IMG/VR virus record: IMGVR_UViG_3300047667_000558 | Coordinates: 1-64,000 of that record | DNA length: 64,000 nt | Direction: 5' to 3' (one strand) | DNA from: a virus | Shown here: positions 4,180 through 63,275 of the stretch, piece after piece | Position numbering within the stretch: the stretch's first letter is position 1 | Layout: the number at the start of each line of letters is the position of its first letter | The notes under the pieces: model-generated | Told to the model about the DNA's origin: nothing | Database searches by the model: none | Seen by the model: the letters and a program-made list of their open reading frames with translations, nothing else | Position numbers and translations under genes: made by a program

Positions 4180-4199
4180 ATGTTGCCTTATTTTACAAT

Positions 4200-4228
4200 A
4201 TTATATCATGATAAGTCATTGATGTCAA
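4200..4228 (-). promoter_or_regulatory. Perfect early sigma-70 promoter for gp47-gp46
   Basis: Minus strand: TTGACA (4223-4228), 17 bp, TATAAT (4200-4205), both consensus hexamers exact. It starts within the last codons of the gp55-like gene and lies just upstream of the gp47 start at 4179. The six bases after the -35 box (TCAATG) are identical in the gp55 promoter. Confidence 0.85.
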
Positions 4229-5255: not shown

Positions 5256-5897
5256 ATGGCACCACGCAAAGATTTAAGAGCAAGATTATCACCTAGAGGT
5301 TCTGCATACTCCGGTCGAAGTGGCGTGGCAGCATTTGAAACAAATTATAATGTGCCGTTCGAAGGCCCAGGCGCAGCGTTGCGCACAACAAACGGCATTA
5401 TATTCCCATTCACTCCAAATATTAACGTAGCCCATACCGTGGAATATAGTCAATATGACCTAGTTCATACCAACTACCAGCAAAATGCATATAGCAGGAC
5501 CCGAAATCCTTCTATTCAAATTTCAGGGGTGTTTGCCAGTCAGACCCCAGAAGAAGCAGCATACACGGTAGGTGTTATGCATTTCCTACGAGTAATGAGT
5601 AAAATGAATTTCGGCACAAGTGATGATGAACGCGGCACCCCGCCCCCTGTGTGTGAGTTTAATGCATATGGCACATATAACTTTCACCGCGTCCCAGTGT
5701 TAATCGGTGATTTCACCTTTAACTATGAGGACGATACAGATTATGTGGAAGTCGGGGTCAATGGTGAAACTGTACAAATTCCGGCAATGATGACAATTGC
5801 TATCAGTCTGATACCACAATATTCCGCTAGCAAGCAAAATAGCTTCAATCTAGGTGAATTTGCACAAGGCACTGGATACAAAAGAGGATTCTTATAA
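5256..5897 (+). CDS. Baseplate/tail-tube structural protein (gp48/gp54 type)
   Basis: A 213-residue protein that looks like the tail-tube-fold proteins capping the baseplate hub. Features are a basic N-terminal tail, the stretch NPSIQISGVFASQTPEEA, the strongly patterned VMHFLRVMSKMNFG, then GTPPPVCEF and a run of beta strands ending in a basic GYKRGFL tail. The same pattern recurs in structural proteins of marine T4-like phages next to gp53. It has no enzymatic motif. Its stop codon overlaps the gp53 start (TAATG), so it is translationally coupled. The assignment to gp48 or gp54 specifically is inference from neighbourhood and fold-like patterning. Confidence 0.5.
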   Translation: MAPRKDLRARLSPRGSAYSGRSGVAAFETNYNVPFEGPGAALRTTNGIIFPFTPNINVAHTVEYSQYDLVHTNYQQNAYSRTRNPSIQISGVFASQTPEEAAYTVGVMHFLRVMSKMNFGTSDDERGTPPPVCEFNAYGTYNFHRVPVLIGDFTFNYEDDTDYVEVGVNGETVQIPAMMTIAISLIPQYSASKQNSFNLGEFAQGTGYKRGFL

Positions 5898-6184
5898 TGG
5901 CTTACAAACAAACTAGTCACCTGAGTGCAACTCCGGTAGTAAACGGTTATACAACGATGTATAACCCTTCAATCAGGCCAAATTACTCACAAACAACAGT
6001 GTTTACACTAACACAAAAATACAATAAGCGACCAGATATATTGGCATATGAGCGTTATGGCGAAGCGGCATATTGGTGGGTGTTTGTTGTTTATAACAAG
6101 AATTTAATTCTTGACCCCATCAATGACTTCACCACGGGACTAACTATATTAGTCCCTAACAGAAACTTTATCGCAGGATTATAA
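5897..6184 (+). CDS. 53: Baseplate wedge protein gp53
   Basis: A 95-residue protein with the gp53/LysM-like pattern: KRPDILAYERYGEAAYWWVF, then YNKNLILDPINDF, then GLTILVP. In T4, gp53 closes the junction between baseplate wedges around the hub. T4 gp53 is about 196 residues, and this short form is common in marine T4-like phages. It overlaps both neighbours by one base (TAATG), typical of coupled structural genes. Confidence 0.85.
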   Translation: MAYKQTSHLSATPVVNGYTTMYNPSIRPNYSQTTVFTLTQKYNKRPDILAYERYGEAAYWWVFVVYNKNLILDPINDFTTGLTILVPNRNFIAGL

Positions 6185-8286: not shown

Positions 8287-8301
8287 CACAGGAAGTAATT
8301 A

Positions 8302-10044
8302 ATGTCAAAAGATAGAAGCTCAGATACCTATAGCCGCAAGGTCCGTGAGGCATATAATCAAAATACCATGTCCAAGGGGATCAAAATTCCGTCTGGCGTT
8401 TACCGTGGAATTGTGGTTAATAATCAAGACCCTGTCAAAAAAGGCCGGATCAGAGTACAGATTATGAAATTCTATGGAACAGCCGTTGTTGGCTCTGATG
8501 CAGATGCAACCAACAACTCTGATGGCAGTGAATGGGTGGGTGCAATGTGGTGCCGCCAAATGCTGCCAACAGGTGGAACGACTGTACCAGAAGGCGAGGC
8601 AGGCTCGGTAGGACAAACTACATACGGTGCATTTGGTCCGCCGCCCAGTCTAGGCAATGAGGTATTAGTCGCCTTTGGTGGTGATATGCACAGTGGTATT
8701 GTTATCGGGGTATTGCCCGATATTGACAGAAGTGACGGCATTGCTGGCGCTGGCATCCAGCGTGAAACCACCGCTGGAAACACAATGTCACTAGAAACCC
8801 CTAAGACTGCTAACTCGGCAGACGCTACGCCATCACCACATCCACAAAACGCCGCATTGATAAACCAAGGGATACAAGACGATCTCGTGCGGGGCCAAAA
8901 CACCAGTTCCCCCGCACGCGATCCAAGTTCGCGAGTTGGTGGTATGAGCAGCCCAGCAGGACATTCTATTGTCATGGACGATGGTAGCTTGGAAGACGGA
9001 CAGGGGTTGCGTATGCGGCTACGAACTGCGGGTGGTGCACAAATTCTTATGGATGATACGCTAGGGTTAACCTACATCAACAACCGTGAAGGCAATGTTT
9101 GGATTGAATTAAATCGCAATGGCGATATGGACATCTATGCAGGTGGTAGTATCAATTATCATGCTGAAAATGACTTCAACGTACATTGTGGTGGAAATTT
9201 TAATGTACAATCTGGCGGCGACATTAATATGAAATCACTAGGCGCACAAGGAATAAAAATGGAGGCGGCAAGAGGCAGTTTCAATATGAAATGTGCAGCC
9301 AACATGAATTTACAAGCTGACGCAAACGGTAATATTCGGGTCGCAGGCAACTACCGTGAAACTGCTGGCCGCATCGATATGAATGGCCCAGCAGCAGCCG
9401 CCGCAGCAACCCCATCCATTGTCCAGCATGCAGGCAACACAAACATAACTGAAAGCGTGTCGACACGTGTACCAGAGCATGAACCATGGGCAGGCCACTT
9501 AGACGTGTCTACGCGACCATCGGGCACAACAAGTAGTGATACTACATACTATGGTGCTCCGGTCGATGTGGAAAGTTTCGACGGCCAAACGGGTAGCTTG
9601 TCATTTAATGACTTTTCCAGAGTAACATTACCACCAAATTCACGATTGTCCTTCCAATCAGGCGTCGATACTCGTGTCGATCCGGCACTCATTACCACTA
9701 TGGAAGAAGTCGCCCGCCAATTTGGTCGCTCGTTAGTTATTTCCAGTGGTGCACGTGATCCAACTAGAAATGAAACTGCTGGCGGCGCAACAAACTCACA
9801 GCATCTTCTTGGCCATGCAGTCGACGTATCCGGCGCAGCACTTTCAAATGCTGACCGAATTTCACTGGTTAAAATTGCAAGTACGATAGGCATACGCGGC
9901 ATCGGGGTATACTCAGGTGGCGGCATGCACTTTGATAATCGAACAGGCGCAAGAGCAGGATGGGGCAATAATTACTCTTATACATCATTGGCAGCATATG
10001 TCGCACCAACAGTAAACAAACACCGCGCAGGAGGATTTTCATAA
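8302..10044 (+). CDS. 5: Spike protein gp5-like with C-terminal M15 peptidase
   Basis: A 580-residue central spike. Residues about 28-160 form a gp5/VgrG OB-fold (SGVYRGIVVNNQDPVKKGRI, then LGNEVLVAFGGDMHSGIVIG). Residues about 260-370 are a beta-helix needle with short repeats such as GGNFNVQSGGDINMKS. Residues about 440-560 are an M15 peptidase domain: SQHLLGHAVDV supplies His501 and Asp508, and GGMHFD supplies His543, the zinc ligands of D,D/L,D-carboxypeptidases. T4 gp5 carries a lysozyme in the middle of the chain. Here the cell-wall enzyme is a peptidase at the C-terminus. It would cut peptide stems of peptidoglycan during injection. The stop codon overlaps the next start (TAATG). Confidence 0.85.
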   Translation: MSKDRSSDTYSRKVREAYNQNTMSKGIKIPSGVYRGIVVNNQDPVKKGRIRVQIMKFYGTAVVGSDADATNNSDGSEWVGAMWCRQMLPTGGTTVPEGEAGSVGQTTYGAFGPPPSLGNEVLVAFGGDMHSGIVIGVLPDIDRSDGIAGAGIQRETTAGNTMSLETPKTANSADATPSPHPQNAALINQGIQDDLVRGQNTSSPARDPSSRVGGMSSPAGHSIVMDDGSLEDGQGLRMRLRTAGGAQILMDDTLGLTYINNREGNVWIELNRNGDMDIYAGGSINYHAENDFNVHCGGNFNVQSGGDINMKSLGAQGIKMEAARGSFNMKCAANMNLQADANGNIRVAGNYRETAGRIDMNGPAAAAAATPSIVQHAGNTNITESVSTRVPEHEPWAGHLDVSTRPSGTTSSDTTYYGAPVDVESFDGQTGSLSFNDFSRVTLPPNSRLSFQSGVDTRVDPALITTMEEVARQFGRSLVISSGARDPTRNETAGGATNSQHLLGHAVDVSGAALSNADRISLVKIASTIGIRGIGVYSGGGMHFDNRTGARAGWGNNYSYTSLAAYVAPTVNKHRAGGFS

Positions 10045-13825: not shown

Positions 13826-16800
13826 ATGGCACAAAGCATCCGACAAAGAAATCTGTTCGCAGCAGAAGATTACAGAGTAGTTTACGATAGTTTCAAGCAG
13901 GCGAATTTCCAAGCCTATGATTATGACACCATCCGTGGTGCATTGGTAGATTATATCCAGCAACAATATCCTGAAAACTTCAATGACTGGATTCAAAGTT
14001 CTGAATTTGTGGCGCTGATTGAAACACTGTCGTTTCTCGCACACTCATTAGCCTTCAGAATTGACCAAACAGGTCGCGAAAACTTCTTGAGCACAGCCGA
14101 ACGCCGCGCGAGCGTTTTGCGTATTGCTGACTTTTTAGGATACACTCCAAGCCGTCACCAGCCTGCGCGAGGTCAACTCAAGGTAACTGGCATCCGTACC
14201 ACACAAGACGTGTACGACATCAATGGACGTACCCTTAAGAATACTACCGTCGACTTCGAAGATAACTACCAGAATTTCTTGCTTATTATGAATGAAGTTC
14301 TAGGCAATGTCAACAAATTTGGCCGACCAACCGATACGTCGCGCATCGGTAACATCAAGCATGACATTTATGCGACAAGCATTGAAGCTGGTCACAATGT
14401 GGTGTTTGGTGTCCAAGGCAAGGTAAATGGCAATAGTGGTAACTTTGAAATTCATGGATTAGAAATCGACAATTCTTCCAACGTATTACTCGAAACCGCC
14501 CCAGACCAAAATAAAAGTTTTGACATTGTTTATAAGAATGATGGACAAGGCATCGGCAGTGAAGACACTGGTTTTTTCGTTGGGTTCAAGCAAGGTAATT
14601 TACAATTCACCGACGTCAACGCCACAACCGCTATTTCCAACTTGGTGGTTGACTTATCAGCCACCAATGTCAATAACAGCGACATCTGGGTTCAGGAAAT
14701 TAACACTGCTGGTGAAATCCAAGACACATGGACAAAGATTGATAGTGGGTTTGGAGCAAACACAGTATTTAATAACATTCGCCAAGACAATCGCAAGCTA
14801 TACACAGTCAAAACAATGGACCAAGACAACGTCAATATTCAATTTGGTGACGGAGTATTCAGCGACATTCCTCGTGGCATCATTCGTATTTGGTATCGCA
14901 CAGGTGTAAACCAAACATACACCCTTGATACAGACGACATCGGCATTGTAACATTCGGATATACCTACACTGTTAGTCAAGACACTGGATCAGATAATAC
15001 GCACAAGGTGACGTTTACGTGTGAACTTCAATCACCTGTAACTAATGCATCTTCACAGGAAAGTGTGACTAGTATTAAAAATAATGCTGGCCGAGTATTT
15101 GCTACACAAGACCGTATGATTACAGCCAGTGATTATTCAATTTACCCGCTGACGGTCAGTGAAAACGTTAATAAAATTAAAGCGGTCAATCGTACATATA
15201 ATGGACACAGTCGTTTTATCAAGCCACAAGACCCGACGGGCACATACCAGAACGTTGACATGCTCGCGGACGATGGCTACATTTACAGCGAAGGCATTAC
15301 GTACAGGTCAAATCTTGCGTTACCGTCTACCCTAACGTCTGAACAAATATATGAACGCTTCATTGCAGACTTAATTGAAAATCCTGAAATTGTCAATTTA
15401 TTCTATACCAAATATGACGTAACTGAGATTGACTTTTCGACATCAGTGGGTAGCTATGAGTGGCAGCAGATCACGTCAGGATACCGTGGTAGTACAGGTT
15501 ATTTGACACTTAATAGTGAAATTCAAAAAGCTGGCAAAAACGCAACTAATGACTTAGTCACGGCTGCTCCAGGATCAATTGTAGAATTTATTGAAACACC
15601 ATATAATGCAGGTACATTAGGCGTGATCGGCCAAACATTAAGTATCATTAACGCAGGTAGTGGTTACACCAGTGCACCAACTGTAACCGTACAGGGCACA
15701 GGCACGGGGGCTACGGCAACTGCAACTGTATCTGGTGGCCAACTTGCGGCCATCACGTTGACAAATGGTGGCACAGGCTATCAAAACCCTGTAGTTATAA
15801 GTATTTCTGGTGGCGGCGGCGCGGGCGCAGAAGTTGTGGCTGTGGCCACAACTGCTTCACGTAGTTGGGCTAGAGTAGTCGATATTGTGAACGACGGTCA
15901 AGGTATCAACGACAGCAACGGCAACCCAACGGGATTGTCTAGTCGTGGCCAAGGTGCAATAATTCTCAATAAGAGCATCCCCAACACTGCTAGAATATCA
16001 CAAATATTTCCCGCATATTCAACCGTGTTTACTGCCGATGAAAAAGTTGCCATTATTGACGAACTAGAAAAGTCAAATACATTTGGGTTACGGTATGACA
16101 CCACAACCCGTGAGTGGATAATCATACACGCGGGTGACTTGCCGTCGGAAAATTCAAATAGTCCTGATAATTTTAACATTTCTAATGCAGGCGACAACAG
16201 CAACAGTAATGCAGATCAATCATGGATCGTGCGGGTACAGTATACGGTTAATGCGTGGCGCTTCATCAGTCGCCGTACACGATATGTGTTTGGCAGTAAT
16301 GACCGCATCAGGTTCTTTAACCAAAATGGTAACCGCCGCTTTAATGTAGAGACCAATAAGCCTGACCGTGATCGTGTAGTTGTTTCCAAGATCAACACCA
16401 TCCCAGGTGGCAGTGTGTATCCAATTGGCGAAGATTTGCCATTCTATACATATCGCTATTACACTGGGACAGATGGGTACACTGATGATCGTAAAGTTAT
16501 TGTTACATTGGCCGACATTGACAACGACAACTATCCTGATAATCCGCTGGCATTCCGCACATTAGTTGATGCTGACACCATCAATCTTGGCACCGTTTCA
16601 GAAGATGGTTATTCATATGTTGCACTTAGCGACGTTGGGACAGCGACTGCTGGCCGTCAAAATTTGACATTTGTATGGAAACGGATCAGTACCAGCGACT
16701 ATAGAATTGACCCAAGCCTTTCAAACATTATTGATATCTTCGTTCTTAACCAAAATTATGATGCTAAATATCGTGAGTGGATAGCAGATAGTCGCCTAGC

Positions 16801-17266
16801 TTCAACCAAACCATTGGCTCCAACGTCAATAGAATTGGAAACACAGTTTGCGGATATTGCCTCAAAGAAGGCGATCAGTGACTCCATTGTTTACCGTCCG
16901 GCATTTTATAAAGTGTTGTTTGGTGAACTGGCGGACATTGAATTACAAGGTAAATTTAAGATTGTGAAAGTACCAGGGACTACCCTTACAAATAACGAAA
17001 TTAAATCGAGAGCGTTGAATGCAATTAACCAATTCTTTAGTATAGACAATTGGGATTTTGGCGAGGTATTCTACTTCACAGAATTGAGCGCGTATATTCA
17101 CCAACAGCTGCCAGGCATTATTAGTAGTGTTGTGATTACACCAGTGCAAACATCAGGTGTGTTTGGAGATTTATTCCAGATTATACCTGAAAGCAACGAA
17201 CTATTCATTCCGGACATAATACTACAAGATATCGACATTGTCGATACATTAAACTCATTAAGGTAA
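13826..17266 (+). CDS. 6: Baseplate wedge protein gp6
   Basis: A 1,146-residue wedge protein of the gp6/BaseplateJ class, which in T4 dimerises and links wedges into the inner ring. The N-terminus is diagnostic (AEDYRVVYDSFKQANFQAYD, then ALVDYIQQQYPENFNDW, SEFVALIETLSFLAHSLAFR and STAERRASVLRIADFLGY). T4 gp6 is about 660 residues, so this one is clearly enlarged. Part of the excess is an inserted module at about residues 605-680 made of two short glycine-rich beta units (INAGSGYTSAPTVTV and NGGTGYQNPVVISI). A similar unit also occurs in the gp7-like protein. The C-terminal 150 residues (FFSIDNWDFGEVFYFTEL) match the gp6 core. Confidence 0.9.
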   Translation: MAQSIRQRNLFAAEDYRVVYDSFKQANFQAYDYDTIRGALVDYIQQQYPENFNDWIQSSEFVALIETLSFLAHSLAFRIDQTGRENFLSTAERRASVLRIADFLGYTPSRHQPARGQLKVTGIRTTQDVYDINGRTLKNTTVDFEDNYQNFLLIMNEVLGNVNKFGRPTDTSRIGNIKHDIYATSIEAGHNVVFGVQGKVNGNSGNFEIHGLEIDNSSNVLLETAPDQNKSFDIVYKNDGQGIGSEDTGFFVGFKQGNLQFTDVNATTAISNLVVDLSATNVNNSDIWVQEINTAGEIQDTWTKIDSGFGANTVFNNIRQDNRKLYTVKTMDQDNVNIQFGDGVFSDIPRGIIRIWYRTGVNQTYTLDTDDIGIVTFGYTYTVSQDTGSDNTHKVTFTCELQSPVTNASSQESVTSIKNNAGRVFATQDRMITASDYSIYPLTVSENVNKIKAVNRTYNGHSRFIKPQDPTGTYQNVDMLADDGYIYSEGITYRSNLALPSTLTSEQIYERFIADLIENPEIVNLFYTKYDVTEIDFSTSVGSYEWQQITSGYRGSTGYLTLNSEIQKAGKNATNDLVTAAPGSIVEFIETPYNAGTLGVIGQTLSIINAGSGYTSAPTVTVQGTGTGATATATVSGGQLAAITLTNGGTGYQNPVVISISGGGGAGAEVVAVATTASRSWARVVDIVNDGQGINDSNGNPTGLSSRGQGAIILNKSIPNTARISQIFPAYSTVFTADEKVAIIDELEKSNTFGLRYDTTTREWIIIHAGDLPSENSNSPDNFNISNAGDNSNSNADQSWIVRVQYTVNAWRFISRRTRYVFGSNDRIRFFNQNGNRRFNVETNKPDRDRVVVSKINTIPGGSVYPIGEDLPFYTYRYYTGTDGYTDDRKVIVTLADIDNDNYPDNPLAFRTLVDADTINLGTVSEDGYSYVALSDVGTATAGRQNLTFVWKRISTSDYRIDPSLSNIIDIFVLNQNYDAKYREWIADSRLASTKPLAPTSIELETQFADIASKKAISDSIVYRPAFYKVLFGELADIELQGKFKIVKVPGTTLTNNEIKSRALNAINQFFSIDNWDFGEVFYFTELSAYIHQQLPGIISSVVITPVQTSGVFGDLFQIIPESNELFIPDIILQDIDIVDTLNSLR

Positions 17267-48981: not shown

Positions 48982-49010
48982 TTGACATTTTATTGATATA
49001 TACGTATACT
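48982..49010 (+). promoter_or_regulatory. Early sigma-70 promoter for the glycosyltransferase operon
   Basis: TTGACA (48982-48987), 17 bp, TATACT (49005-49010). It starts a nine-gene rightward operon at 49037 and marks the border between late structural and early accessory genes. Confidence 0.8.
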
Positions 49011-52843: not shown

Positions 52844-53837
52844 TTTTGACATCATTTACATTAGCTATGACGAACCAAACGCAGACGCGAACTGGCATGA
52901 TCTATTAGACAAATGCCCATGGGCTAAGCGCAGCCATGGAGTATATGGCAGTGACGCGGCGCACAAGGCCGCTGCGAGGCTATCTGAAACCAGTAGGTTC
53001 CTCACTGTCGACGCTGACAACATTGTTGATCCAGAGTTCTTCAATTTAGAGATTGATATGGCAAAACTTGGACGCAGTGATGTGATTAGTTGGGCAGCAA
53101 AGAATGAGATTAACGGGTTGGTCTATGGCAATGGTGGCATCAAATGTTGGCCAAAGCATGTCGTTGAACGCATGCAAACACATGAAGCGGCACCTGAAAA
53201 TAATCCCGCTGCACAGGTGGACTTTTGTTGGAACATCAATTATGTTCAGATGAACAATGTGTATTCACACGTTTACAATAATGCAAGTCCCATGCAAGCA
53301 TGGCGTGCAGGCTTCCGCGAAGGCTGTAAGATGACACTAGTTGGCGGCGACGTAGTAGCGGATAAGGCTCAAGTCAAAAAGGTACATCACAAAAATCTGC
53401 AACGTTTGCTTGTATGGCAATCGGTAGGCACAGACGCTACAAACGGCGACTGGGCTAGGTATGGTGCCCGTCAGGGGTCTGTGATGACCAATCTACAGCA
53501 AGATAGCTGGGATTGGCGTATGGTACGTGATTTTAAATGGCTCAACAATTTCTGGGCAACAAACATCGCCCCATCGTTTGATGTGCAAGATTATACAAAT
53601 GAAGCCGATATTCGTATGTGCCCCAACACTGGATACAAGTGGGACAACCTGAAGTTAGCAGAAGAGACCATCTCACTAGGCCAACAATGCCGTGATGAGT
53701 TGGGCTTAGTGATAGCTGATCTTGACGCACAGGGCAGTAAGTTCTTCAAAGCAGTATACGTGAATCCGGCACGAGTTGCGCCCATGGCTCGCGAAGAAGA
53801 AGTCATTAATGAAATCAAGGAAACAAATAATGAATAA
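52821..53837 (+). CDS. Glycosyltransferase family 2-like protein
   Basis: A 338-residue protein with a GT2-type start (FDIIYISYDEPNADANWHDL), a gap-free Rossmann stretch, then D-A-D in SRFLTVDADNIVDPEFF, the metal- and nucleotide-binding motif. The later WAAKNEINGLVYGNGGIKCW and QVDFCWNINYV would be the acceptor side. The ribosome site is GAGG. Overlap is 23 bases upstream and 8 bases with the radical SAM gene. Sugar donor and acceptor are unknown. Confidence 0.7.
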   Translation: MTLTPINDFDIIYISYDEPNADANWHDLLDKCPWAKRSHGVYGSDAAHKAAARLSETSRFLTVDADNIVDPEFFNLEIDMAKLGRSDVISWAAKNEINGLVYGNGGIKCWPKHVVERMQTHEAAPENNPAAQVDFCWNINYVQMNNVYSHVYNNASPMQAWRAGFREGCKMTLVGGDVVADKAQVKKVHHKNLQRLLVWQSVGTDATNGDWARYGARQGSVMTNLQQDSWDWRMVRDFKWLNNFWATNIAPSFDVQDYTNEADIRMCPNTGYKWDNLKLAEETISLGQQCRDELGLVIADLDAQGSKFFKAVYVNPARVAPMAREEEVINEIKETNNE

Positions 53838-55410
53838 AGATGACTTAGAACTCAAAGGATTTAAGATTTCCAACTCTGGAGCAGTGCAGATGGAAGATGC
53901 AAACTTAAATGTACTAAAGGGGTTACTAGATAAGAAAGGCTGCGGACTATGTCTTGCCAAATGGAACCAAGTAACACTCCATTTGGGTACAGGCCTGATG
54001 CATAGTTGTCACCATCCAGTACCGCATAAAATTCCATTAGAGGAATTGAAAGACAATCCTGCGGCATTATTCAATACGAAACACATTAAAAAAGCACGTA
54101 AACAAATGCTTAATGGTGAGAAGCCTTCTGAATGTGATTACTGCTGGCGGATCGAAGAAAATGGCGACACCAGCGACAGGTTGTACAAAAGTATTGAGCC
54201 ATGGGCATTGCCATCATATGACAGAGTGGTTGCATCGACTGGTGACGAAGATGTATTTCCAAGCTATCTTGAGGTAGATTTCAGTAACGCATGTAACATG
54301 AAATGTGTGTATTGTGGTCCTGAATTTTCCAGCAAGTGGGTGAGCGAATTAAAGCAAAAAGGTCCAATAAAATTAATGGAAGGAACTCCTGAAGAATCTT
54401 GGGCACAAGGCTGGCAAGACTTAGACAGTCTAAGTTACAAGCAGAGTGAAGAAAATCCGTATGTAACTGCTTTCTGGAAATGGTTTCCAGAAGCGTACAC
54501 TCATTTAAAAGAGTACCGAATTACAGGCGGTGAGCCACTGATGAGTAAAGAGACCTTTAGAAGTATTGATTGGTTAATCGCAAATCCAAATCCTGAGTTA
54601 CAGTTCAGCATGAACTCGAATTTATGTGTGCCGGACAAGATTTGGGATAAATTTATTGACAAATTAGAAATCTTAAAGAGTAATAATACTATCAAAAAAG
54701 TAACTATGTATGTAAGTGCTGAGTCATGGGGCGAAGCAGCAGAATACGCACGGACAGATATGGACTTCGAATTGTTTAAGACCCGTGCCGAACAACTTGC
54801 GGAAATCGGTAATGTCAGAATAGTAGTGATGGCGGCATTCAATGTGTTGGCTATCACCACATTCAAAACATTATTGGAATGGATTTTAGAATTAAAGAAA
54901 AAACACAATACAAACTCAATTATTGTCAATGATGAAATCAACACTGGATATAAAATGGCTGGGACAGATTTTAAAGAACGGGCAGAAAAGAATCCAAGTC
55001 TAGTAGATTCATATGCTATTGGAATTGATATACCATACGTGCGTCACCCGACCCATTTAGATGCACAGTATTGCAGCGATGACTTAGTCGAAGATTATCT
55101 GTTGCCTGCTCTGGACTTCATGAGCAATAATGTAGCATGGTCATCGTACAATGGTCATCAAGGTTTCGAGGCACATGAAGTAGAAAAATTAAAACGTATT
55201 ATCTATCATCGAATTTATTTTAATCCTAAAAATAATCCGCGATCTGAAGACACGAAGATCAAACAGCAACGCGCATTGTTTTACGAGTTTGTTGAGGTGC
55301 TTGATGCCCGTCGCAATACTGACTTCTTAGCTGTGTTTCCTGAAATGAAAGAATTCTACGAGATATGCAAGAACGAGAAATTACAGGTTGATGCGAAATT
55401 CAATAAATGA
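53830..55410 (+). CDS. Radical SAM enzyme with twitch-like domain
   Basis: A 526-residue protein starting at MNKDDLELKG (AAGGA ribosome site). It carries the radical SAM cluster C-x3-C-x2-C at Cys155, Cys159 and Cys162 (ACNMKCVYCGPEF), followed by the SAM-binding GGEPLMSKETF. Upstream Cys and His residues (CGLCLAKWNQ, SCHHP, CDYCWRIEENG) could bind an auxiliary cluster, as in SPASM/twitch enzymes. Such enzymes modify peptides, sugars or cofactors by radical chemistry. Phage versions are known but their substrates are mostly not. The neighbours suggest a sugar or a glycosylated virion protein as substrate (inference). Confidence 0.8.
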   Translation: MNKDDLELKGFKISNSGAVQMEDANLNVLKGLLDKKGCGLCLAKWNQVTLHLGTGLMHSCHHPVPHKIPLEELKDNPAALFNTKHIKKARKQMLNGEKPSECDYCWRIEENGDTSDRLYKSIEPWALPSYDRVVASTGDEDVFPSYLEVDFSNACNMKCVYCGPEFSSKWVSELKQKGPIKLMEGTPEESWAQGWQDLDSLSYKQSEENPYVTAFWKWFPEAYTHLKEYRITGGEPLMSKETFRSIDWLIANPNPELQFSMNSNLCVPDKIWDKFIDKLEILKSNNTIKKVTMYVSAESWGEAAEYARTDMDFELFKTRAEQLAEIGNVRIVVMAAFNVLAITTFKTLLEWILELKKKHNTNSIIVNDEINTGYKMAGTDFKERAEKNPSLVDSYAIGIDIPYVRHPTHLDAQYCSDDLVEDYLLPALDFMSNNVAWSSYNGHQGFEAHEVEKLKRIIYHRIYFNPKNNPRSEDTKIKQQRALFYEFVEVLDARRNTDFLAVFPEMKEFYEICKNEKLQVDAKFNK

Positions 55411-55426
55411 AACTGGTACCGTAATC

Positions 55427-56668
55427 ATGTTTAATATATTCCCAGTATGGCCTGATCCAAAATATCCTAAGTCTGATATATTTGCTGTTAATTATAAGAT
55501 AACAGATGTATCAGACAGTGGTCCATTATTGATATGGCACGAGTTAAATGGTGACCCAATGGCACCACCATTTAATACCATACTCGACGGCACGCTGTTT
55601 GCTAAGTTGGACAGCGAGACTATTGACCGAGTTAACAACAAGACTGCATGGATAGTGATCAACACTGCAAACGAATGTATTGGTCCCTCGTATACAGACG
55701 AGGAGGTACGGGTAGACTATTTAAATTTGCACGAAATATTAACGGTATCTGCCATGAAATATGGGATTGATCCTACGTCGGTTATATGGTTGACTGGTGA
55801 CTTAAATGCCGAAGACAAATTGATTGACCTAACACCAATTCACGTTATAAGTGCCTGCGTCTTTGTGCCATTAGTACACCGCATGATTACTGCACACCAA
55901 ACAGCAGTATCATTGTCAACGTTTTCACATCCATATAAATTTAAAAATGTTGCAATCTCTCCTAATCGTCACATAAATTCGCATCGAACTTACATGATTA
56001 CCAGACTGGCGCAATTGGAATTGTTGGAAAACATAAACTACAGTTTTCCCAGAAATATACACGGTAAAACAATCAGCGACGGATACTGTGATCTTAAAAT
56101 TAAAAGCAACATATCACCCACGTTTGATCAACACAACTTAATTGACTGGGACCAGATGGCAGTTACGTGCATGGAGCTATATCAATGTGAGTTGCCACTA
56201 ACAATTGACGTTGACCCCAATACCAATACGTGTCTAGGACTAGACGCCTTCCTGACATTGAAGCAGCCATACCAAGACAGCATATATAGTATTCTGACAG
56301 AGTCGCATGCAGACGGCGGTAAATGCTTTATTAGCGAAGCGTTGGTCGTGGCTATCGTTATGCAGACGCCATTCTTGTTAGTAGGAAATCGAGGCGTGAT
56401 CGCACAGATGCGGGCATGGGGATTACACACATTTGACGATCTATTTGATGAATCATACGACGACGAGGTTGATGATATTAAACGGTATGAAATGATCATC
56501 GAACAGATACAACGCATTGACAATATGCCATGGGAAGAATTGTTAGCAATTCGCATGAGTATGAAACAAAAATTAGATGAGAATGTTACTCGTTTAGCTA
56601 CACTGTCTGCCGAATTAGATCAGTCTCTCAATGACAAGTTAAGTCGTATTATTGCGAATAGTAACTAA
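55427..56668 (+). CDS. Hypothetical protein of the marine-phage WGLHTFDDLFDESYD type
   Basis: A 413-residue protein. Starts at ATG 55427 or 55391 are both possible; I prefer 55427, which avoids a 20-base overlap. The C-terminal 110 residues (CFISEALVVAIVMQTPFLLV, then MRAWGLHTFDDLFDESYDDE) match a conserved region of unknown proteins in marine T4-like phages. The rest is an alpha/beta mix with no motif I can name. It ends the rightward operon and overlaps the convergent cupin gene by 30 bases. Confidence 0.6.
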   Translation: MFNIFPVWPDPKYPKSDIFAVNYKITDVSDSGPLLIWHELNGDPMAPPFNTILDGTLFAKLDSETIDRVNNKTAWIVINTANECIGPSYTDEEVRVDYLNLHEILTVSAMKYGIDPTSVIWLTGDLNAEDKLIDLTPIHVISACVFVPLVHRMITAHQTAVSLSTFSHPYKFKNVAISPNRHINSHRTYMITRLAQLELLENINYSFPRNIHGKTISDGYCDLKIKSNISPTFDQHNLIDWDQMAVTCMELYQCELPLTIDVDPNTNTCLGLDAFLTLKQPYQDSIYSILTESHADGGKCFISEALVVAIVMQTPFLLVGNRGVIAQMRAWGLHTFDDLFDESYDDEVDDIKRYEMIIEQIQRIDNMPWEELLAIRMSMKQKLDENVTRLATLSAELDQSLNDKLSRIIANSN

Positions 56669-57013
56669 CGGCACATCACAGTCGTCCCATCGTTTTGTAA
56701 GCATACTGACAAATCTTAGATCAGTGACTGCTTTAAATGAATGTGGAAGGTACGCAGGAACGCGCACACTGTCGCCAACGTTTAACACAGTTGTGTACTC
56801 ACAACTATCACCGTATTCAGTAAAATTACAAACACCATCCACCACCATGATATATTCAACAAACTCAGGATGATAATGATATCCTCGTTCATTGCCTTGC
56901 AATGTAGTGAGTAAGTTGTATTCTACTATATGGTCGTCTGGAAAGAAACTCTGAATGGTGCCACGCGGATCACCAAATACAGTAGGGGTCATTATTGTGC
57001 AATATTTTAACAT
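56639..57013 (-). CDS. Cupin protein, WxcM/FdtA-like sugar isomerase type
   Basis: A 124-residue single-domain cupin. Motif 1 is GYHYHPEFVEYIMVVDG (G-x-H-x-H-x4-E-x6-G), motif 2 is GDSVRVPAYLPHSFKAV. The leading DPRGTIQSFF and KRWDD ending recall the dTDP-sugar 3,4-ketoisomerases that sit next to DegT aminotransferases. The metal-binding His pair is intact. It lies last in the minus-strand sugar operon, coupled to the aminotransferase by TAATG. Alternative: a dTDP-4-keto epimerase-like cupin. Confidence 0.65.
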   Translation of the reverse strand: MLKYCTIMTPTVFGDPRGTIQSFFPDDHIVEYNLLTTLQGNERGYHYHPEFVEYIMVVDGVCNFTEYGDSCEYTTVLNVGDSVRVPAYLPHSFKAVTDLRFVSMLTKRWDDCDVPLVTIRNNTT

Positions 57014-58083
57014 TATATTCCTCGTTTAACAATTTCGCTGATATGACTGACATCAGCGTATGTCAGGCTGTGTTGACTAGGCAAATGCAATCCTCTCCGT
57101 GCAATAGTTTCTGCGTTTGGGATGTCTGTCTGTTCAAATTGACTATGGAACGGTTGCTGAGTCAACGGCTGGTAAGCAATACGGTAACCAATGTTGTTGA
57201 GCTTTAATGACTCTATGATTTCATCGCGATATAAAGTTAATATCTCTGGGTAAATTGGCGCAGTGTTGTGTAGGTTAGTACCTACAAACATTGCATGGCC
57301 TCCCAAATGTGTGCGGTACCATTCATAAATTTGCTTTTTATGATCTACGATCTCCTGTAACCGTTCAAATTGTCCTAATCCAAATGCAGCCTGCAAGTCT
57401 GTAAATTTATAATTTAGTCCCATGGTGTTATAAATCTCACCATCGGCCACTGTTCTGCCGAAGTTCTTGATAGCCTTGATTTGGTCACTGATGTCGTCGC
57501 AATCAGTAACGATGCAGCCACCTTGTCCGGTCGTAATCATTTTAGGTGCACCAAAACTAAACACACCCATATCTCCCAGTGTGCCTACATGTTTGCCGTC
57601 ATGGAAACTTCCCAATGACTGTGCACTGTCTTCAATTACCATGACGCCCTGTGATTGTAATTTGATAATTTCTTCAGTGGTGTCTTTTGACAATCTGCCG
57701 TTGATACTGGTTACAAATACTACGCCACAATCGGGCGGAATTTTTTTAAAGTCGATGGTACATGAGGTATTATCGATGTCAACAAAGCACGGTACACCGC
57801 CTAAACTGATCGCCCCGTTAACAGTTGCTGCCTGTGTGTACGCACTCGCCGCGAACTTGACCCCAGGCCGTATGCCCGCAATCATGGCCGCTATGTGCAA
57901 TCCAGCAGTCGCGCTAGTAACCATGTGAGCGTGTGCGCTGTTTGTGTACTCACAAATCTTGTCTTCTAGCTCTCGCGTCAATTTATGTTCCATGATCCAA
58001 CCGCCCGAAGACATGTACTCCGACACGCGGTCACGCTCAGCTTGAGTGTATTCAGGATTCATATAGCTATTAGGTGTTATCAT
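57013..58083 (-). CDS. DegT/DnrJ/EryC1 sugar aminotransferase
   Basis: A 356-residue PLP enzyme that transfers an amino group to a keto-sugar nucleotide. The PLP Lys is Lys181 in FSFGAPKMITTGQGG, with the upstream IEDSAQSLGS motif and a downstream LNYKFTDLQAAFGLGQFERL. I start at MITPNSYMNPE (58083). The frame extends 7 codons further upstream. It overlaps the preceding epimerase gene by 14 bases. With a cupin and epimerase alongside, the product is likely an aminodeoxy-hexose. Confidence 0.85.
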   Translation of the reverse strand: MITPNSYMNPEYTQAERDRVSEYMSSGGWIMEHKLTRELEDKICEYTNSAHAHMVTSATAGLHIAAMIAGIRPGVKFAASAYTQAATVNGAISLGGVPCFVDIDNTSCTIDFKKIPPDCGVVFVTSINGRLSKDTTEEIIKLQSQGVMVIEDSAQSLGSFHDGKHVGTLGDMGVFSFGAPKMITTGQGGCIVTDCDDISDQIKAIKNFGRTVADGEIYNTMGLNYKFTDLQAAFGLGQFERLQEIVDHKKQIYEWYRTHLGGHAMFVGTNLHNTAPIYPEILTLYRDEIIESLKLNNIGYRIAYQPLTQQPFHSQFEQTDIPNAETIARRGLHLPSQHSLTYADVSHISEIVKRGI

Positions 58084-58978
58084 GCTGCACCATATAATCT
58101 TCATATGTTTTTGTCAAGGCGTCTTCAATAGTAAATTTAGGTTTCCATCCCAATGACCGCAATCTGGAATTGTCCATGCGCCGATGCAGGACACCTTCTG
58201 GCTGATCACGGTTGAACCAAAGTCTGCCAGTGAACCCGCTTATAGTCTTCAATCGGTCGGCAATGTATCCGATACTAATGGCCTCGCCATAGCTGACATT
58301 GACAACGTCAAATTCGTCGTTGTTAATGATTAAGTCGTATGCTGTGATTGCGTCTTCAACGTACAGGAGGTCACGTGTCTGGTTACCACTTCCCCATATT
58401 TCAATTTCGGTCAAGTCGTCTTGGACAGCATTGTGAAATTTCTCAATCAGTGCACCGATCACATGTGCGTACTTGCCGTTTCTTTCACCCGCTCCGAAAA
58501 TATTGGTGTTGATTGCGGTAGTCCATTTTGATCCATAGTTCGCATTATGTGCTTTAATTTGTTCCATGCCGAGTAGTTTACACATTGCACTTGGCATATA
58601 CGCTGGATGCGGTTTGCCGGACATCAAGTCATCTTCAACAAAATATTGATCATTGCCTGCATTTGGATAACTACATCCACTGCCCTGTAACAACACCCTG
58701 TGGATTTTATTCTCGTGAGCAGTTTGCAATAGATTGTTCTGGATACTAATGTTGTCACCATACACCGAAAAGCTGTTGTCCAAGTCTTCCTGTATGCCAC
58801 CAACTGACGCCGCATTAATGATTACATGGGTAGGTTCGTACAGACTAATGTCAACCCGTGTGGCAATATAATTTTTATAGTTGATAGTGGACGTGTTGCC
58901 ACCCTCACAATTGTCAAAATATTCCATCATCTTGCTGCCGATCAATCCGCGATTTCCGGCGATGTAATATGAGTTCAT
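58070..58978 (-). CDS. NAD-dependent epimerase, GDP-fucose-synthase-like, altered active site
   Basis: A 302-residue SDR-type protein with a Rossmann start (AGNRGLIGSKMMEYF), NAASVGGIQ, and LLQGSGCSYP, closest in pattern to GDP-fucose synthase. The catalytic Y-x3-K is replaced by Ser130-A-M-C-Lys134 (PSAMCKLLG), so Tyr is Ser; Lys remains. The nearest Tyr is seven residues before the Lys. The enzyme may have changed its reaction or lost it. A good AAAGGAA ribosome site lies inside the 40-residue gene upstream, with an ATGA overlap. Confidence 0.75.
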   Translation of the reverse strand: MNSYYIAGNRGLIGSKMMEYFDNCEGGNTSTINYKNYIATRVDISLYEPTHVIINAASVGGIQEDLDNSFSVYGDNISIQNNLLQTAHENKIHRVLLQGSGCSYPNAGNDQYFVEDDLMSGKPHPAYMPSAMCKLLGMEQIKAHNANYGSKWTTAINTNIFGAGERNGKYAHVIGALIEKFHNAVQDDLTEIEIWGSGNQTRDLLYVEDAITAYDLIINNDEFDVVNVSYGEAISIGYIADRLKTISGFTGRLWFNRDQPEGVLHRRMDNSRLRSLGWKPKFTIEDALTKTYEDYMVQHDNT

Positions 58979-59097
58979 GGCGTGTTCCTTTTAATATCTT
59001 GGCATAGTGTCTTTATGTCTGTTGTGGTCATGCATAAGTGACACCGCACTCGCTGCCCACGATCTTCTCCAACAAAAAATAATCTAACGTTAGTCAT
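58975..59097 (-). CDS. 40-residue Cys-containing small protein
   Basis: A short frame, ATG at 59095-59097, fits exactly between the methyltransferase and the epimerase: 8-base overlap upstream and ATGA overlap downstream, like every other junction in the operon. It has a basic and hydrophobic start (TNVRLFFVGEDRGQRVRC), a C-x2-C pair (CHLC) and a third Cys near the end (IKTLCQDI). Metal binding is possible. No clear ribosome site precedes it, so translation may depend on coupling. Without it there would be a 111-base gap in an otherwise gapless operon. Confidence 0.6.
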   Translation of the reverse strand: MTNVRLFFVGEDRGQRVRCHLCMTTTDIKTLCQDIKRNTP

Positions 59098-60265
59098 TTT
59101 CGATCACATGTACAGTTGGCATTGCAAACACCATCTTACCGCCAGCAGCAATCCAATCTGCTTCTTTCTCGACGAACATATCTTTGAAACCAAAGTTAGG
59201 GACAAAAAATACGTCAGCTTTTTCTCTTGCTTCCTCTTCAGAAATAATCGGAATGTTTGTCCCTACCGTAAATCTGCCAATCTTGTCAGGATGTATTTCA
59301 GCAGCACCGTCAAATAAGTCATACAGTCCCCATAATTGTAGCATTGTATTCCCCTTCGTACTGGCACCATAAACGTAACATGACAATCCTTCATCCTTAA
59401 AGGCACGAAGCACTTGTTGTAATTCCTTGCCATTGTGTTCGATTGTTTCAGCAAAGGTATCAAGGCTTGACAAATCCTCTTGATATGATATACTACCGCC
59501 GCTATAATGTCTACCCCATATTTGATAGCTACCGCCTTGAATGTCATTCTCAACTACTTTGAAAATCTCTAATCCATTCTGCTCGTACAATCTGACAAGA
59601 CTGTCGTAACTGTAATATTCCAAATGCTCGTGACAAATATTGCCAACATCATACATTTCCAGCATTGGAGCAAGCGTCATCAATTGGGCGATAAAGACGC
59701 CGTCACTTTGCAACGTCTCTTTCACACACTGGATGAATTGATTTGGATTATCCATGTCGTAAAACATTCCAATCGCGGTGATCACTTTTGCTAATTTGCC
59801 ATCCATATGAGAGTGGTTCCACATCATTGGGATCACGATGTCGGCGTGATTAGCCAGCTTGGTAATGAGATTTGCAGCAGGTTCGCACCCAACACGGACG
59901 CGCCATGAATCAACCCCACTTAATAACGTGCCATCATTCGCACCAATATCTAACACTACATCACCTATGTCAGTTATTGTGTTGATCATGGCGGCAATAT
60001 CCAATAGGTTATCTCTCAATTTAGCATTAATTCCGCTCTGATACCAATAGTGATCTTGGTACAATATTTTAGGATCAACTGTATGCCTGAGTTGCACTAA
60101 GTCGCACTGTTCACATTGATCAAGGACTAATGGTGCCTTTGGTGTCTGTGCATTAGACGCCTGCAATGGAAAATCGTTTATACAGATTTGTCCAAAGTCA
60201 ATAATCTCTTTAAGTTTCCCATCACAAACTCTACATGTGGTGGCAATGTTAACACAACTATTCAT
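59090..60265 (-). CDS. SAM-dependent sugar C-methyltransferase
   Basis: A 391-residue protein of the NovU/TylC3-like C-methyltransferase type. The N-terminal zinc module has CRVCDG and CEQCDLVQL. The SAM-binding motif is VLDIGANDGTLL, and the region AQLMTLAPMLEMYDVGNICHEHLEYYS contains the conserved His-Glu-His signature. The C-terminal Rossmann part (CYVYGASTKGNTMLQLWGL) is also typical. It would add a branching methyl to a 4-keto-deoxysugar. Start at MNSCVNIATT (60265) with 8-base overlap to the upstream gene. Confidence 0.85.
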   Translation of the reverse strand: MNSCVNIATTCRVCDGKLKEIIDFGQICINDFPLQASNAQTPKAPLVLDQCEQCDLVQLRHTVDPKILYQDHYWYQSGINAKLRDNLLDIAAMINTITDIGDVVLDIGANDGTLLSGVDSWRVRVGCEPAANLITKLANHADIVIPMMWNHSHMDGKLAKVITAIGMFYDMDNPNQFIQCVKETLQSDGVFIAQLMTLAPMLEMYDVGNICHEHLEYYSYDSLVRLYEQNGLEIFKVVENDIQGGSYQIWGRHYSGGSISYQEDLSSLDTFAETIEHNGKELQQVLRAFKDEGLSCYVYGASTKGNTMLQLWGLYDLFDGAAEIHPDKIGRFTVGTNIPIISEEEAREKADVFFVPNFGFKDMFVEKEADWIAAGGKMVFAMPTVHVIEND

Positions 60266-61037
60266 ATCCGGCTTCCTTTGCGATAGTATAACATTTTTCG
60301 ACATCAAACGCAAGTTCAATCGTCATTTTTCGGTATGCGCTATTGTGCATGTCGGTTTCTTCGTAGTATAATGTATTTGTCTTGTCAGCATAGTCAGATG
60401 TCAGTTCTTCGAAGAATAGATTGTCAGCAACAAGTGCTTTAATCATTGGGACTATTCTTTCATATGGAAAATTGTCAATAACTAATTCTGTCACTGTGTC
60501 ATCCTCTGTTGCATGCCATACATTCGTCGGCATATATTCTGTTTTAAGCATACTTATTGCTTGGGCAACCATGTCATTTCTTTTGATGATTGTAATGCAG
60601 TCCGCCTCTTGAAATAAACAAGCTACCACTTCTGGAGTAACATGTTGGTATCGCATTAGCTTGACACACCAATTCTTATTTGAGGCGCGTAGTGCTTTCC
60701 ATCTAATTTCATGGGCAGTAATAAAGTCATTGCAGGTAGGAAATTTATCAGTCAACACGTACTGGAAATTGTCAACAGTTTCATATACGCTGTCTAATCT
60801 TGGCTGATGATACTGGCTTCCCCACGCAGATTCAAAATCTCCAATCTCCAAATATTTCAAACATTCTGGTGTTATTCGGTCATATAATATAGTCTGTCCG
60901 TCTTGACTTCTTGGTAATATTAAGTTTTCAATATTGAAGTATTCCATTAGGTTCAGGTCAGCGTCGACCATACTTGCAATAGCGTGGCCACCTGATCTAG
61001 GCGTAGCTAAAAATACAGTGTTTACACCATTACTCAT
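60258..61037 (-). CDS. Sulfotransferase-like protein
   Basis: A 259-residue protein with a P-loop-like 5'-phosphosulfate-binding loop FLATPRSGGHAI (residues 9-20) and a later 3'-phosphate-type motif CITIIKRNDMVAQAISM, the R-x3-x-x-A-x-S arrangement of PAPS-dependent sulfotransferases (Stf0-like). It would transfer sulfate to a sugar or glycan. The rest is helical with few landmarks. It overlaps neighbours by 8 bases on each side. Confidence 0.7.
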   Translation of the reverse strand: MSNGVNTVFLATPRSGGHAIASMVDADLNLMEYFNIENLILPRSQDGQTILYDRITPECLKYLEIGDFESAWGSQYHQPRLDSVYETVDNFQYVLTDKFPTCNDFITAHEIRWKALRASNKNWCVKLMRYQHVTPEVVACLFQEADCITIIKRNDMVAQAISMLKTEYMPTNVWHATEDDTVTELVIDNFPYERIVPMIKALVADNLFFEELTSDYADKTNTLYYEETDMHNSAYRKMTIELAFDVEKCYTIAKEAGYE

Positions 61038-61614
61038 ATGTGATAACTTTCATGGTGGCATGGTCTGTATTTAACAACGTAGTGTTATTCCATGCTTGTC
61101 GTGCATAGTCGTGCATGAACATGGCATTGTCAGGCGACAGGGGGGTCGTGCAATTCCCCAAAATATAATGGTGGAAATGTGGGTATGTCAATCTAATTGA
61201 CGTAATGCTACTTGGCAGACAAATGTCACTATGCAGCCCTGCCCAGATGAAGCCGCGCCGACCCCAATCATGATAATCAGGGACCACTGTCTGTACCCCA
61301 TGTTCCCAAAAGAACTCCTGTAAACGTGTCTGGAACGGATATGTTTTATGCCCTTGACTCACGCCATTACGACGCAACGACTGTAACATAAAGTCACTTG
61401 ACTTCACACATTTAATAAATTCGTCAACACAGTACTCAACATGATCGTGGGCATCTGCTATCGTCAAATTATCGCATTGCAGACATGCATGGTCTTCGCG
61501 CATATCAACCAACGTAACTTGCCATTGACTTGGTGAAAGATGTAGGGTAATGTTTTCTGTCACAAATTCCCCATGTACCACGTGTGGGTCACCTCGCAAT
61601 ATCACGTTATTCAT
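61030..61614 (-). CDS. Hypothetical protein in the sugar operon
   Basis: A 194-residue protein, His- and Cys-rich (CLQCDNLTIADAHDHVEYCV, YHDWGRRGFIWAGLHSD, YPHFHHYILGNCT). No family recognised. It may bind a metal. It lies between the dehydrogenase-like and sulfotransferase-like genes with 8-base overlaps at both ends, so it is surely co-expressed with them. Confidence 0.6.
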   Translation of the reverse strand: MNNVILRGDPHVVHGEFVTENITLHLSPSQWQVTLVDMREDHACLQCDNLTIADAHDHVEYCVDEFIKCVKSSDFMLQSLRRNGVSQGHKTYPFQTRLQEFFWEHGVQTVVPDYHDWGRRGFIWAGLHSDICLPSSITSIRLTYPHFHHYILGNCTTPLSPDNAMFMHDYARQAWNNTTLLNTDHATMKVITYE

Positions 61615-62401
61615 CGCGCATCCCTGCGAAGGTAGTCTTGGCTAGTTTGTCGTTGTCACCAATGATAGCCGATATAAATTCATAATTCAAGTTGGAACTC
61701 AAAAATTCTAATGCTCGCATATCTTTTGGAAAACATGCACCAGCATAACCACGAGAATGTTCACTAACGTCTAGGTATTCATCAGGCAATCCATTACGTG
61801 TAACAAATCCATTTTTAATTTTATCGTAATCAACATCTTCAAACTGTTGTGCAATGTCGTAAAATAAATTACCAAAAATAACACGCATTGCTCCAAAACT
61901 ATTGTGCATATATTTAATTGCTTCTGCTTCAGTAGGATTTAACCGCAAGAACTTTTTTGAAATCTTACCGTGACTTCTAATAATTATATCACTGACGTGT
62001 AGGTCAGCTGCGCCAATAATCAATACTTCGTTATTAAATTCAAAATCGTATGCTGCACAACGCTCTTTCATAAACTCCGGAACAAATGCAATATTCGTAT
62101 TTTTATATTTGTCAATAAATGATTGTGTTGTACCTGGAGTTATCGTACTCTTAATTGCAATTACACCAGTATAATTTAAATCCAACAACTCAACGACACA
62201 ATTTTCAATAATTGATGTGTCGCACTGTCCACTGTCAAGCGCGGGACTAGGAACAGAAATATATACAATTTCAGCTTGCAATAATGATTCAATTGTTGTA
62301 TCATATTTTATGTCGTGGGTTAACACTTTAAAGCCTTGATTTAAAAACCCATGCTCCATTGCATTGCCCACAACGCCCATTCCGATTATGCCTATTTTCA
62401 T
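61607..62401 (-). CDS. UDP-glucose/GDP-mannose dehydrogenase-like protein, short form
   Basis: A 264-residue protein with NAD-binding GMGVVG at residues 7-12, VYISVPSPAL, IAIKSTITPGTT, PEFMKERCA, the Lys of EAIKYMHNSFGA, and the catalytic Cys223 in GYAGACFPKDM. Family enzymes are about 390-450 residues and have a C-terminal UDP-binding domain, which is missing here. It may still oxidise a sugar, or use a different carrier. It overlaps the epimerase gene by 4 bases and the next gene by 8. Confidence 0.75.
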   Translation of the reverse strand: MKIGIIGMGVVGNAMEHGFLNQGFKVLTHDIKYDTTIESLLQAEIVYISVPSPALDSGQCDTSIIENCVVELLDLNYTGVIAIKSTITPGTTQSFIDKYKNTNIAFVPEFMKERCAAYDFEFNNEVLIIGAADLHVSDIIIRSHGKISKKFLRLNPTEAEAIKYMHNSFGAMRVIFGNLFYDIAQQFEDVDYDKIKNGFVTRNGLPDEYLDVSEHSRGYAGACFPKDMRALEFLSSNLNYEFISAIIGDNDKLAKTTFAGMRDE

Positions 62402-63246
62402 GTTAATATCCTCTTAATACCTTGTTCGAATGATGTGAATTCATATTCACCAATCACCGATAATAATTTTGTTAAGTCCGCTGCCCGATGCTTAACACTG
62501 CCAGTTTTGCCAGCGACGTTGGCCAATAATGACTTATCTGTCCCAATGTGGTCACAGATAATCTGTGCGGCATGCAGGATGGATATATCAACGTCTGACC
62601 CTATGTGTAGTATTTCATCATGCAGTGCATACACTTTAGTTATGATATCTATCGCGTCGTCAATGTAACAGAAGCTTCTATGCTCGTCGTAACCAAACAC
62701 ACGATAGTCACCATTGGTAACTCTGTCAATAAATTCAGGAATAAAGTGCAACTGTTGTCCTTTGCCATAAATGTTATGAAACCGTAAAATGTTGTATGTG
62801 TGGCCGAATTGTTTACTATGTCCAATGACAGCACTTTCCATTGCAATCTTTGCCGCTGCATAACTCCATCTTACATTGGTGATATCGTCAATAACCAGCG
62901 GTGTCGTTTCTGCGGTAGGCACTGGTGTGATCCCTAAGTTGACGCCGCCTGCATACGATTCACTTGTGCCCGCATACACAAAGTGTGCATTGGGATATCG
63001 ATCAAGTAAGTTCATGGTTGGCCTGACTATAGACGTGGTTACGTCATATGGTGTGGTGTAGAAATTTGCAGTACTGTTGAACGCAGCTAAATGAATTACC
63101 GTATCAACATCTGGCAACGACCGGACAAACTCAGGATCAGTCAAGTCTCCATTGTATTGTGTGTCGGTAAAGTCTGTTGTGATAACTGGTAAAATTTTGG
63201 ATAAGTGTGAGCCGATAAATCCATTGGCCCCTGTTAATAAAATCAT
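62398..63246 (-). CDS. NAD-dependent nucleotide-sugar epimerase/dehydratase
   Basis: A 282-residue extended SDR protein. Rossmann motif is TGANGFIGSHL (residues 5-15), then VIHLAAFNS, VYAGTSESYAGG, and an intact Y-x3-K at Tyr129 and Lys133 (WSYAAAKIAMES), then RFHNIYGKGQQLHF. It resembles UDP-glucose 4-epimerases and UDP-glucuronate decarboxylases, so the exact reaction cannot be told. It is the first gene of the nine-gene operon under the late promoter at 63268-63275, with an AAAGGT ribosome site. Confidence 0.8.
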   Translation of the reverse strand: MILLTGANGFIGSHLSKILPVITTDFTDTQYNGDLTDPEFVRSLPDVDTVIHLAAFNSTANFYTTPYDVTTSIVRPTMNLLDRYPNAHFVYAGTSESYAGGVNLGITPVPTAETTPLVIDDITNVRWSYAAAKIAMESAVIGHSKQFGHTYNILRFHNIYGKGQQLHFIPEFIDRVTNGDYRVFGYDEHRSFCYIDDAIDIITKVYALHDEILHIGSDVDISILHAAQIICDHIGTDKSLLANVAGKTGSVKHRAADLTKLLSVIGEYEFTSFEQGIKRILT

Positions 63247-63267: not shown

Positions 63268-63275
63268 TATTTATA
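63268..63275 (-). promoter_or_regulatory. Consensus late promoter for the sugar operon
   Basis: TATAAATA on the minus strand, a perfect T4 late octamer, 21 bases before the epimerase start. It is paired with the motif at 63277-63284 on the plus strand in a TATTTAT-ATC-ATAAATA palindrome. Confidence 0.8.

Follow-up and report, generated by a model that had tools for sequence, protein, structure and literature searches.

What sugar might a bacteriophage make with an operon of nucleotide-sugar enzymes, one of which has lost its catalytic tyrosine? The question is raised by nine open reading frames (ORFs) in the IMG/VR virus record IMGVR_UViG_3300047667_000558, a linear record of 66,277 bases of which we have studied bases 1-64000, the whole stretch that we call the window. 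The ORFs lie on the minus strand from 63246 down to 56639 and adjacent ORFs overlap by 1-14 nt, which confirms the nine overlapping genes given in a preliminary description of this DNA. That description had viewed all nine as one pathway for a modified sugar. That view is upheld for a conserved core of four genes, encoding a cupin, a C-methyltransferase (cmt), a GDP-fucose-synthase-like epimerase (fcl) and a DegT-family aminotransferase (degT), the remaining genes proving to be variable accessories. The amino and C-methyl parts of the proposed sugar are likewise supported, both by the protein families and by the retention of the core in more than 20 contigs.

The cmt gene (59090..60265) most likely starts at ATG 60265, rather than at TTG 60319, and encodes a protein of 391 amino acids (aa). 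This is matched over its full length by the TylC3/MtmC/TcaB9 family of sugar C-methyltransferases, and contains all three domains of TylC3 and TcaB9 (PF08421, PF13489 and PF08484), i.e., the Zn-binding N domain, the S-adenosylmethionine (SAM) domain and the C-terminal domain. The profile matches are above cut-off (Methyltransf_13, 3e-11; Methyltransf_23, 4e-10; Methyltransf_14, 5e-22). The solved relatives in the PDB, MtmC (1e-38) and TcaB9 (1e-30), are sugar C-methyltransferases, and Glu213-His214 of cmt align with a Glu-His in both, which we take to be the catalytic pair. Among named phage records, its best relatives are only ~31-32% identical. The start of degT (57013..58083) was corrected to ATG 58083, giving a protein of 356 aa with which homologues begin to align at residue 8. 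It matches the profile of the DegT/DnrJ/EryC1/StrS sugar aminotransferases (PF01041, 7e-70), with an invariant Schiff-base Lys188. GDP-perosamine synthases of the DegT family (3bn1, 3dr4) are among its closest solved relatives; unlike theirs, the substrate of the phage enzyme is probably C-methylated. The fcl gene (58070..58978) encodes 302 aa, and the small cupin (56639..57013; PF07883, Cupin_2, 9e-10) has 124 aa. The families that had been suggested for the epimerases, dehydrogenase-like protein, methyltransferase, DegT protein and cupin agree with these and the other profile searches.

Are these four genes associated by more than chance? A first search with cmt returned eight viral contigs, all eight of which carry an fcl-like gene and a DegT gene, and all but one of which, cut at its end, carry the cupin. 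Alignment queries with the fcl-like protein, DegT or cmt converge on a nearly identical set of 24 IMG/VR contigs. Over these 24, the tally is 22 for cmt, 23 for the fcl-like gene, 22 for DegT and 18 for the cupin, and the absences fall in records cut near the module. Every contig that is uncut at the module has cmt, fcl-like and DegT genes together, and usually the cupin too. Identities to the window proteins are 59-68% for cmt, 52-72% for the fcl-like protein, 51-71% for DegT and 38-71% for the cupin. Gene order varies among the relatives, and in one subgroup the cupin and cmt genes face those of DegT and Fcl; the association has therefore outlasted rearrangement. The closest relative of the window, contig L011, has the entire region in common with it, including the operon that converges on the nine genes, and was used to compare the proportions of nonsynonymous and synonymous differences (pN and pS). 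All seven genes compared are under purifying selection (pN 0.11-0.29 versus pS 0.65-0.86). Since searches with three different genes return the same contigs, and the genes co-occur wherever the record is uncut, we conclude that the core forms a pathway module that is old and under selection. It is apparently restricted to viruses. Scans of 84,980 genomes with signature peptides confirmed no cellular homologue of cmt or fcl, a weak negative given the strictness of the patterns; used as a pattern query in viral contigs, DegT by itself gave no match, again because the patterns are too strict, where its alignment had succeeded.

The fcl-like protein is the most unusual member of the core. It belongs to the Epimerase family, and its best family model is GDP-fucose synthase (NF047922, 3e-58, under the curated cut-off of that model). 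It resembles GDP-L-fucose synthase (Fcl/GMER/GFS; E. coli 1bsv, human 4bkp) over its full length (profile E 3e-56) and in its short-chain dehydrogenase/reductase (SDR) fold (template modeling score 0.86). GDP-sugar epimerase/reductases were the best structural matches to an AlphaFold2 model, E. coli GDP-fucose synthetase coming first. Alignment with the E. coli enzyme, whose numbering we use, shows that Ser107, Cys109, Lys140 and His179 are retained. By contrast, Tyr136 is replaced by Thr or Ser in all 16 members of the clade, by Ser in the window. The Ser-Tyr-Lys set that catalyzes 4-keto reduction is thus broken, while the Cys109/His179 pair for epimerization is complete. Since the replacement is found in every member, we do not class the protein as a GDP-fucose synthase. 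The epimerase had previously been noted as altered; the loss of the catalytic tyrosine bears this out, but as a property of the clade rather than a local oddity. In a phylogenetic tree the sequences lacking Tyr136 group together at the end of one long branch, as a fully supported clade, and Tyr136 is intact in Fcl of the cyanophages and other phages examined. The gene itself is under purifying selection (pN 0.16, pS 0.78 against L011).

Work on the human enzyme shows what such a change might do. There Cys116 and His186 perform the epimerizations and Tyr143 is the proton donor in the reduction; in the Y143F variant kcat is ~100-fold lower, reduction is rate-limiting and epimerization is much less affected (PMC12362431). 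NADPH is unnecessary for epimerization, as shown with a bacterial enzyme (PMC12362431). The simplest and best reading of the phage sequences suggests that the fcl-like enzyme only epimerizes its substrate and hands the 4-ketone on intact to DegT. An ordinary GDP-fucose synthase consumes the ketone in the same active site, so loss of the tyrosine would convert an enzyme that ends a pathway into a mid-pathway epimerase that feeds an aminotransferase.

We therefore propose the following route to an activated amino-sugar with a C-methyl group, and consider it somewhat better than an even chance that the operon follows it. The starting compound would be a 4-keto-6-deoxy nucleoside diphosphate (NDP)-hexose, most likely GDP-4-keto-6-deoxy-mannose, provided by the host or by the product of an unseen phage gene. 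The cmt protein would C-methylate the keto-sugar beside the ketone, and the fcl-like enzyme would epimerize it using its Cys/His pair, leaving the ketone unreduced for want of the catalytic tyrosine. DegT would then transaminate the remaining ketone with pyridoxal phosphate, and the cupin may isomerize or epimerize some intermediate. The product is probably a 3-C-methyl, 4-amino, 6-deoxy sugar, possibly sulfated later; its nucleotide and stereochemistry, the order and regiochemistry of the reactions, the target and every chemical step we infer. Presumed glycosyltransferases would attach the sugar to an acceptor on the phage or the host envelope, late in infection. An in-silico precedent exists in the proposal for virenose in Coxiella, where GDP-4-keto-6-deoxy-mannose is C3-methylated and then passed to a GMER-type enzyme (PMC3539893). 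The most ambitious version, in which a pathway confined to viruses makes an undescribed sugar (e.g., GDP-3-C-methyl-4-amino-4,6-dideoxy-L-hexose), the Tyr-less Fcl is a new type of enzyme, a pure keto-sugar epimerase descended from GDP-fucose synthase, and the virion of a large phage is decorated, we regard as doubtful.

Several points weigh against the proposed route. Within the clade an invariant tyrosine (Tyr127 in the window) aligns with E. coli Asn133, three residues ahead of the lost Tyr136, and this could assume the acid role. The AlphaFold2 model has a predicted local distance difference test score below 50 at residues 103-119, and is too uncertain to place Tyr127 relative to Tyr136. 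Human Y143F retains ~3% activity, still releasing GDP-fucose (PMC12362431). In marine virus AG-345-F15 a Tyr-bearing Fcl sits 2.4 kb from a distant DegT, so that a neighboring DegT is not always coupled to loss of the tyrosine. A search of ten related records, which may be fragments and of which the largest has 342 kb, yielded neither a GDP-mannose 4,6-dehydratase (Gmd) nor a sugar nucleotidylyltransferase of the NTP-transferase family; the host or an unseen gene must therefore supply the keto-sugar. Strong matches to the GDP_Man_Dehyd family in three large contigs (G001-G003) were considered as Gmd and rejected, being closest to GalE. Finally, a cupin of the 3,4-ketoisomerase type would fit amination at C3 better than at C4.

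When is the operon expressed, and what might its sugar modify? A motif resembling a late promoter, TATAAATA, lies at 63268..63275 on the minus strand, 22-28 nt upstream of epiA, the first gene. The preliminary description had deduced late control. The exact motif occurs twice in the window versus four expected, and we rejected it as proof for lack of enrichment, using the wider [AC]TAAATA instead. Of its 21 sites, 9 are found 15-75 nt ahead of a start on the same strand, where random placement would give 0.5 (0 of 2000 trials), foremost before tail genes and including the sugar operon; ATAAATA is conserved at the matching place in L011. Since the motif resembles the T4 late promoter and precedes structural genes, it is probably a late promoter that switches the sugar operon on late. 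Several tail-fiber-like genes, at 34367, 39297, 41416 and 43850, have near-identical leaders (TAAATA...AACAAGG), as if the promoter had been co-duplicated. We do not claim that the plus-strand gene at ~63290 has a divergent promoter, the inverted motif being only ~6 nt from its ATG.

The convergent operon on the plus strand has a sigma70-type promoter-like site before it (TTGACA-N17-TATACT, 48982..49010), so the presumed transferases need not have late timing. At least three glycosyltransferase-like proteins had been ascribed to this operon. That identity is not supported: Pfam and PHROGs gave no match except for the radical SAM-like protein, and three of the proteins used in tblastn searches found no phage relative. 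The radical SAM enzyme (53776..55410, plus strand) survives with a match to phrog_1802 (1e-4) and one to PF04055 below cut-off (1.6e-5), and its homologues adjoin the module in relatives. The convergent gene at 55388-56668 overlaps the cupin gene, last in the sugar operon, by 30 nt. Its product appears related to those of L002:14153-15517 and L002:15533-16855; the three have no assigned family and have in common a C-terminal stretch of the EKTFKP/EKSYKP type, and similar proteins adjoin the module in relatives.

Decoration of the virion by the sugar is possible. A sugar that modifies the host envelope (lipopolysaccharide or capsule), e.g., to block competing phages, is a contender to which we give rather less than an even chance, and is compatible with the chemistry proposed above. 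This is the published reading of cyanophage NDP-sugar clusters (PMC7824862, PMC9602691), and the sigma70-type promoter of the convergent operon may allow that operon to act earlier. However, the sugar operon adjoins tail genes and shares their promoter motif, which is late for superinfection exclusion.

Which carbon is aminated? The cupin has an RGxHxH motif in alignment, and a Foldseek search with its model places its fold nearest to the sugar 3,4-ketoisomerases QdtA, FdtA, FdtD, HCAN_0198 and WlaRB. In an alternative that we consider unlikely, but worth bearing in mind, the cupin would act like FdtA and QdtA, converting a C4 ketone into a C3 ketone, and DegT would aminate C3; the C-methyl group would then be elsewhere (e.g., at C5, as for NovU) or the order would differ, and the Fcl-like enzyme would set stereochemistry only. 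DegT and the cupin are indeed neighbors in the window and in L011, but the two genes are separated in most relatives. Moreover, the cupin resembles FdtA weakly in sequence (E 0.0055; profile PF05523 E 0.086, below cut-off), and DegT has closer relatives among the perosamine (C4) synthetases than among the QdtB-type enzymes.

Might the Fcl-like enzyme complete the GDP-fucose-synthase reaction after all, using the relocated tyrosine at position 133? It would then make a branched, virenose-like relative of L-fucose, with DegT in a parallel branch. The invariance of Tyr127 favors this, as does Synechococcus phage DSL-LC02 (L048, OR032571.1), in which Gmd, a C-methyltransferase and an Fcl with its tyrosine intact are adjacent (5721-8915) and followed by glycosyltransferases, with no DegT relative found within the 17 kb examined. 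That trio may itself constitute a virenose-like pathway, here in a named phage. Yet the canonical SDR proton donor is replaced in all members of the clade, and fcl and degT are always together in uncut contigs, and we judge this alternative improbable. That the cluster is scavenged or decaying, with no joint function, is very hard to credit: orf40 stands in place of the small methyltransferase that relatives have, and ugd is without its C-terminal domain, but the reading frames are intact, all seven genes compared are under purifying selection and the core is retained in more than 20 contigs.

The genes outside the core fall into two groups. The epiA, unk194 and orf40 genes are peripheral, while stf and ugd recur in part of the clade. 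EpiA (62398..63246; Epimerase, PF01370, 1e-27) resembles GDP-mannose dehydratase and UDP-xylose synthase in keeping a T-S-E motif and YxxxK (SYAAAK); it is 81% identical in L011, while most relatives carry instead a different SDR of ~297 aa that is not in the window or L011. Unk194 (61030..61614, 194 aa) has no family match or assigned function, and among the relatives compared has a homologue only in L011 (54% identity). Orf40 (58975..59097, 40 codons, no family match) is doubtful as a real gene, and no counterpart was found in L011, which has a methyltransferase-like ORF of 249 aa in its place. Such a small methyltransferase is present in nearly all relatives and missing from the window. We rejected the idea that orf40 is its remnant, since there is no similarity past the start of fcl.

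The stf gene (60258..61037) encodes a Stf0-like sulfotransferase of 259 aa, with a match to PF09037 below cut-off (E 0.007). The sulfo part of the sugar foreseen in the preliminary description thus has a weak match behind it, but the gene recurs next to cmt/fcl in eleven relatives, and homologues in L012 and L024 exceed the cut-off. In L024 (8532-9998) and L030 (8529-9998) a sulfotransferase-like protein is fused with the small methyltransferase as a single protein. The short UDP-glucose/GDP-mannose dehydrogenase-like protein ugd (61607..62401, 264 aa) has NAD and central domains only (PF03721 and PF00984; 2e-14 and 7e-12), and so not the three domains of a UDP-sugar 6-dehydrogenase. Without the UDP-binding C-terminal domain but with its catalytic cysteine motif (GACFPKD) retained, the protein may have a different substrate. 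It is 68% identical in L011, with distant homologues (21-24%) in eight relatives. The L011 protein (6687-7487) is as short, also without the UDP-binding domain and with the cysteine motif kept. L011 encodes in addition a UDP-sugar dehydrogenase-like protein of 758 aa (2260-4536) with an intein-like insertion that begins CYSADTEVLT and ends WQGN before T; the last ORF of the window's record (L002:16833-17276) matches its C-terminal part (77%).

The window comes from a large, marine, T4-like virus that infects bacteria, and the record is a fragment of ~66 kb, so that the absence of a gene from it says little. The baseplate protein (13826-17266) is nearest to those of jumbo myoviruses (~37-42% identity; Agrobacterium phage Atu_ph07, 490 kb, and Salmonella phage Munch). 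A test for gp23, the T4 major capsid gene, was positive in 5 of 12 module contigs, these being the five largest, and in 0 of 14 control cellular genomes. Neither tRNAs nor matches to known RNA families were found within the 64,000 nt.

How new is this module? The set had been described as uncommon for a phage, which holds for the exact combination of genes, but phage nucleotide-sugar clusters are well known (PMC7824862, PMC9602691). The GDP-sugar clusters of cyanophages P-SSM2, S-SKS1, S-SCSM1 and DSL-LC02 likewise place nucleotide-sugar genes with glycosyltransferases; unlike the module, they have their own Gmd and a Tyr-bearing Fcl, and no linked relative of the window DegT in the regions examined. 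In the Megavirinae, giant viruses encode rare amino-sugar pathways linked to the glycans of virion fibrils (PMC10117803); these are amoeba viruses with other sugars and enzymes. The class of viral nucleotide-sugar clusters is thus already known, and what is new is the Tyr-less Fcl-like enzyme within the module. Viral nucleotide-sugar genes are usually taken as borrowed host lipopolysaccharide genes, and here a core is conserved in more than 20 viral contigs. The altered active site of its fcl-like enzyme predicts a specific new activity that is cheaply testable, and the module points to a virus-made sugar that can be sought on virions or infected cells.

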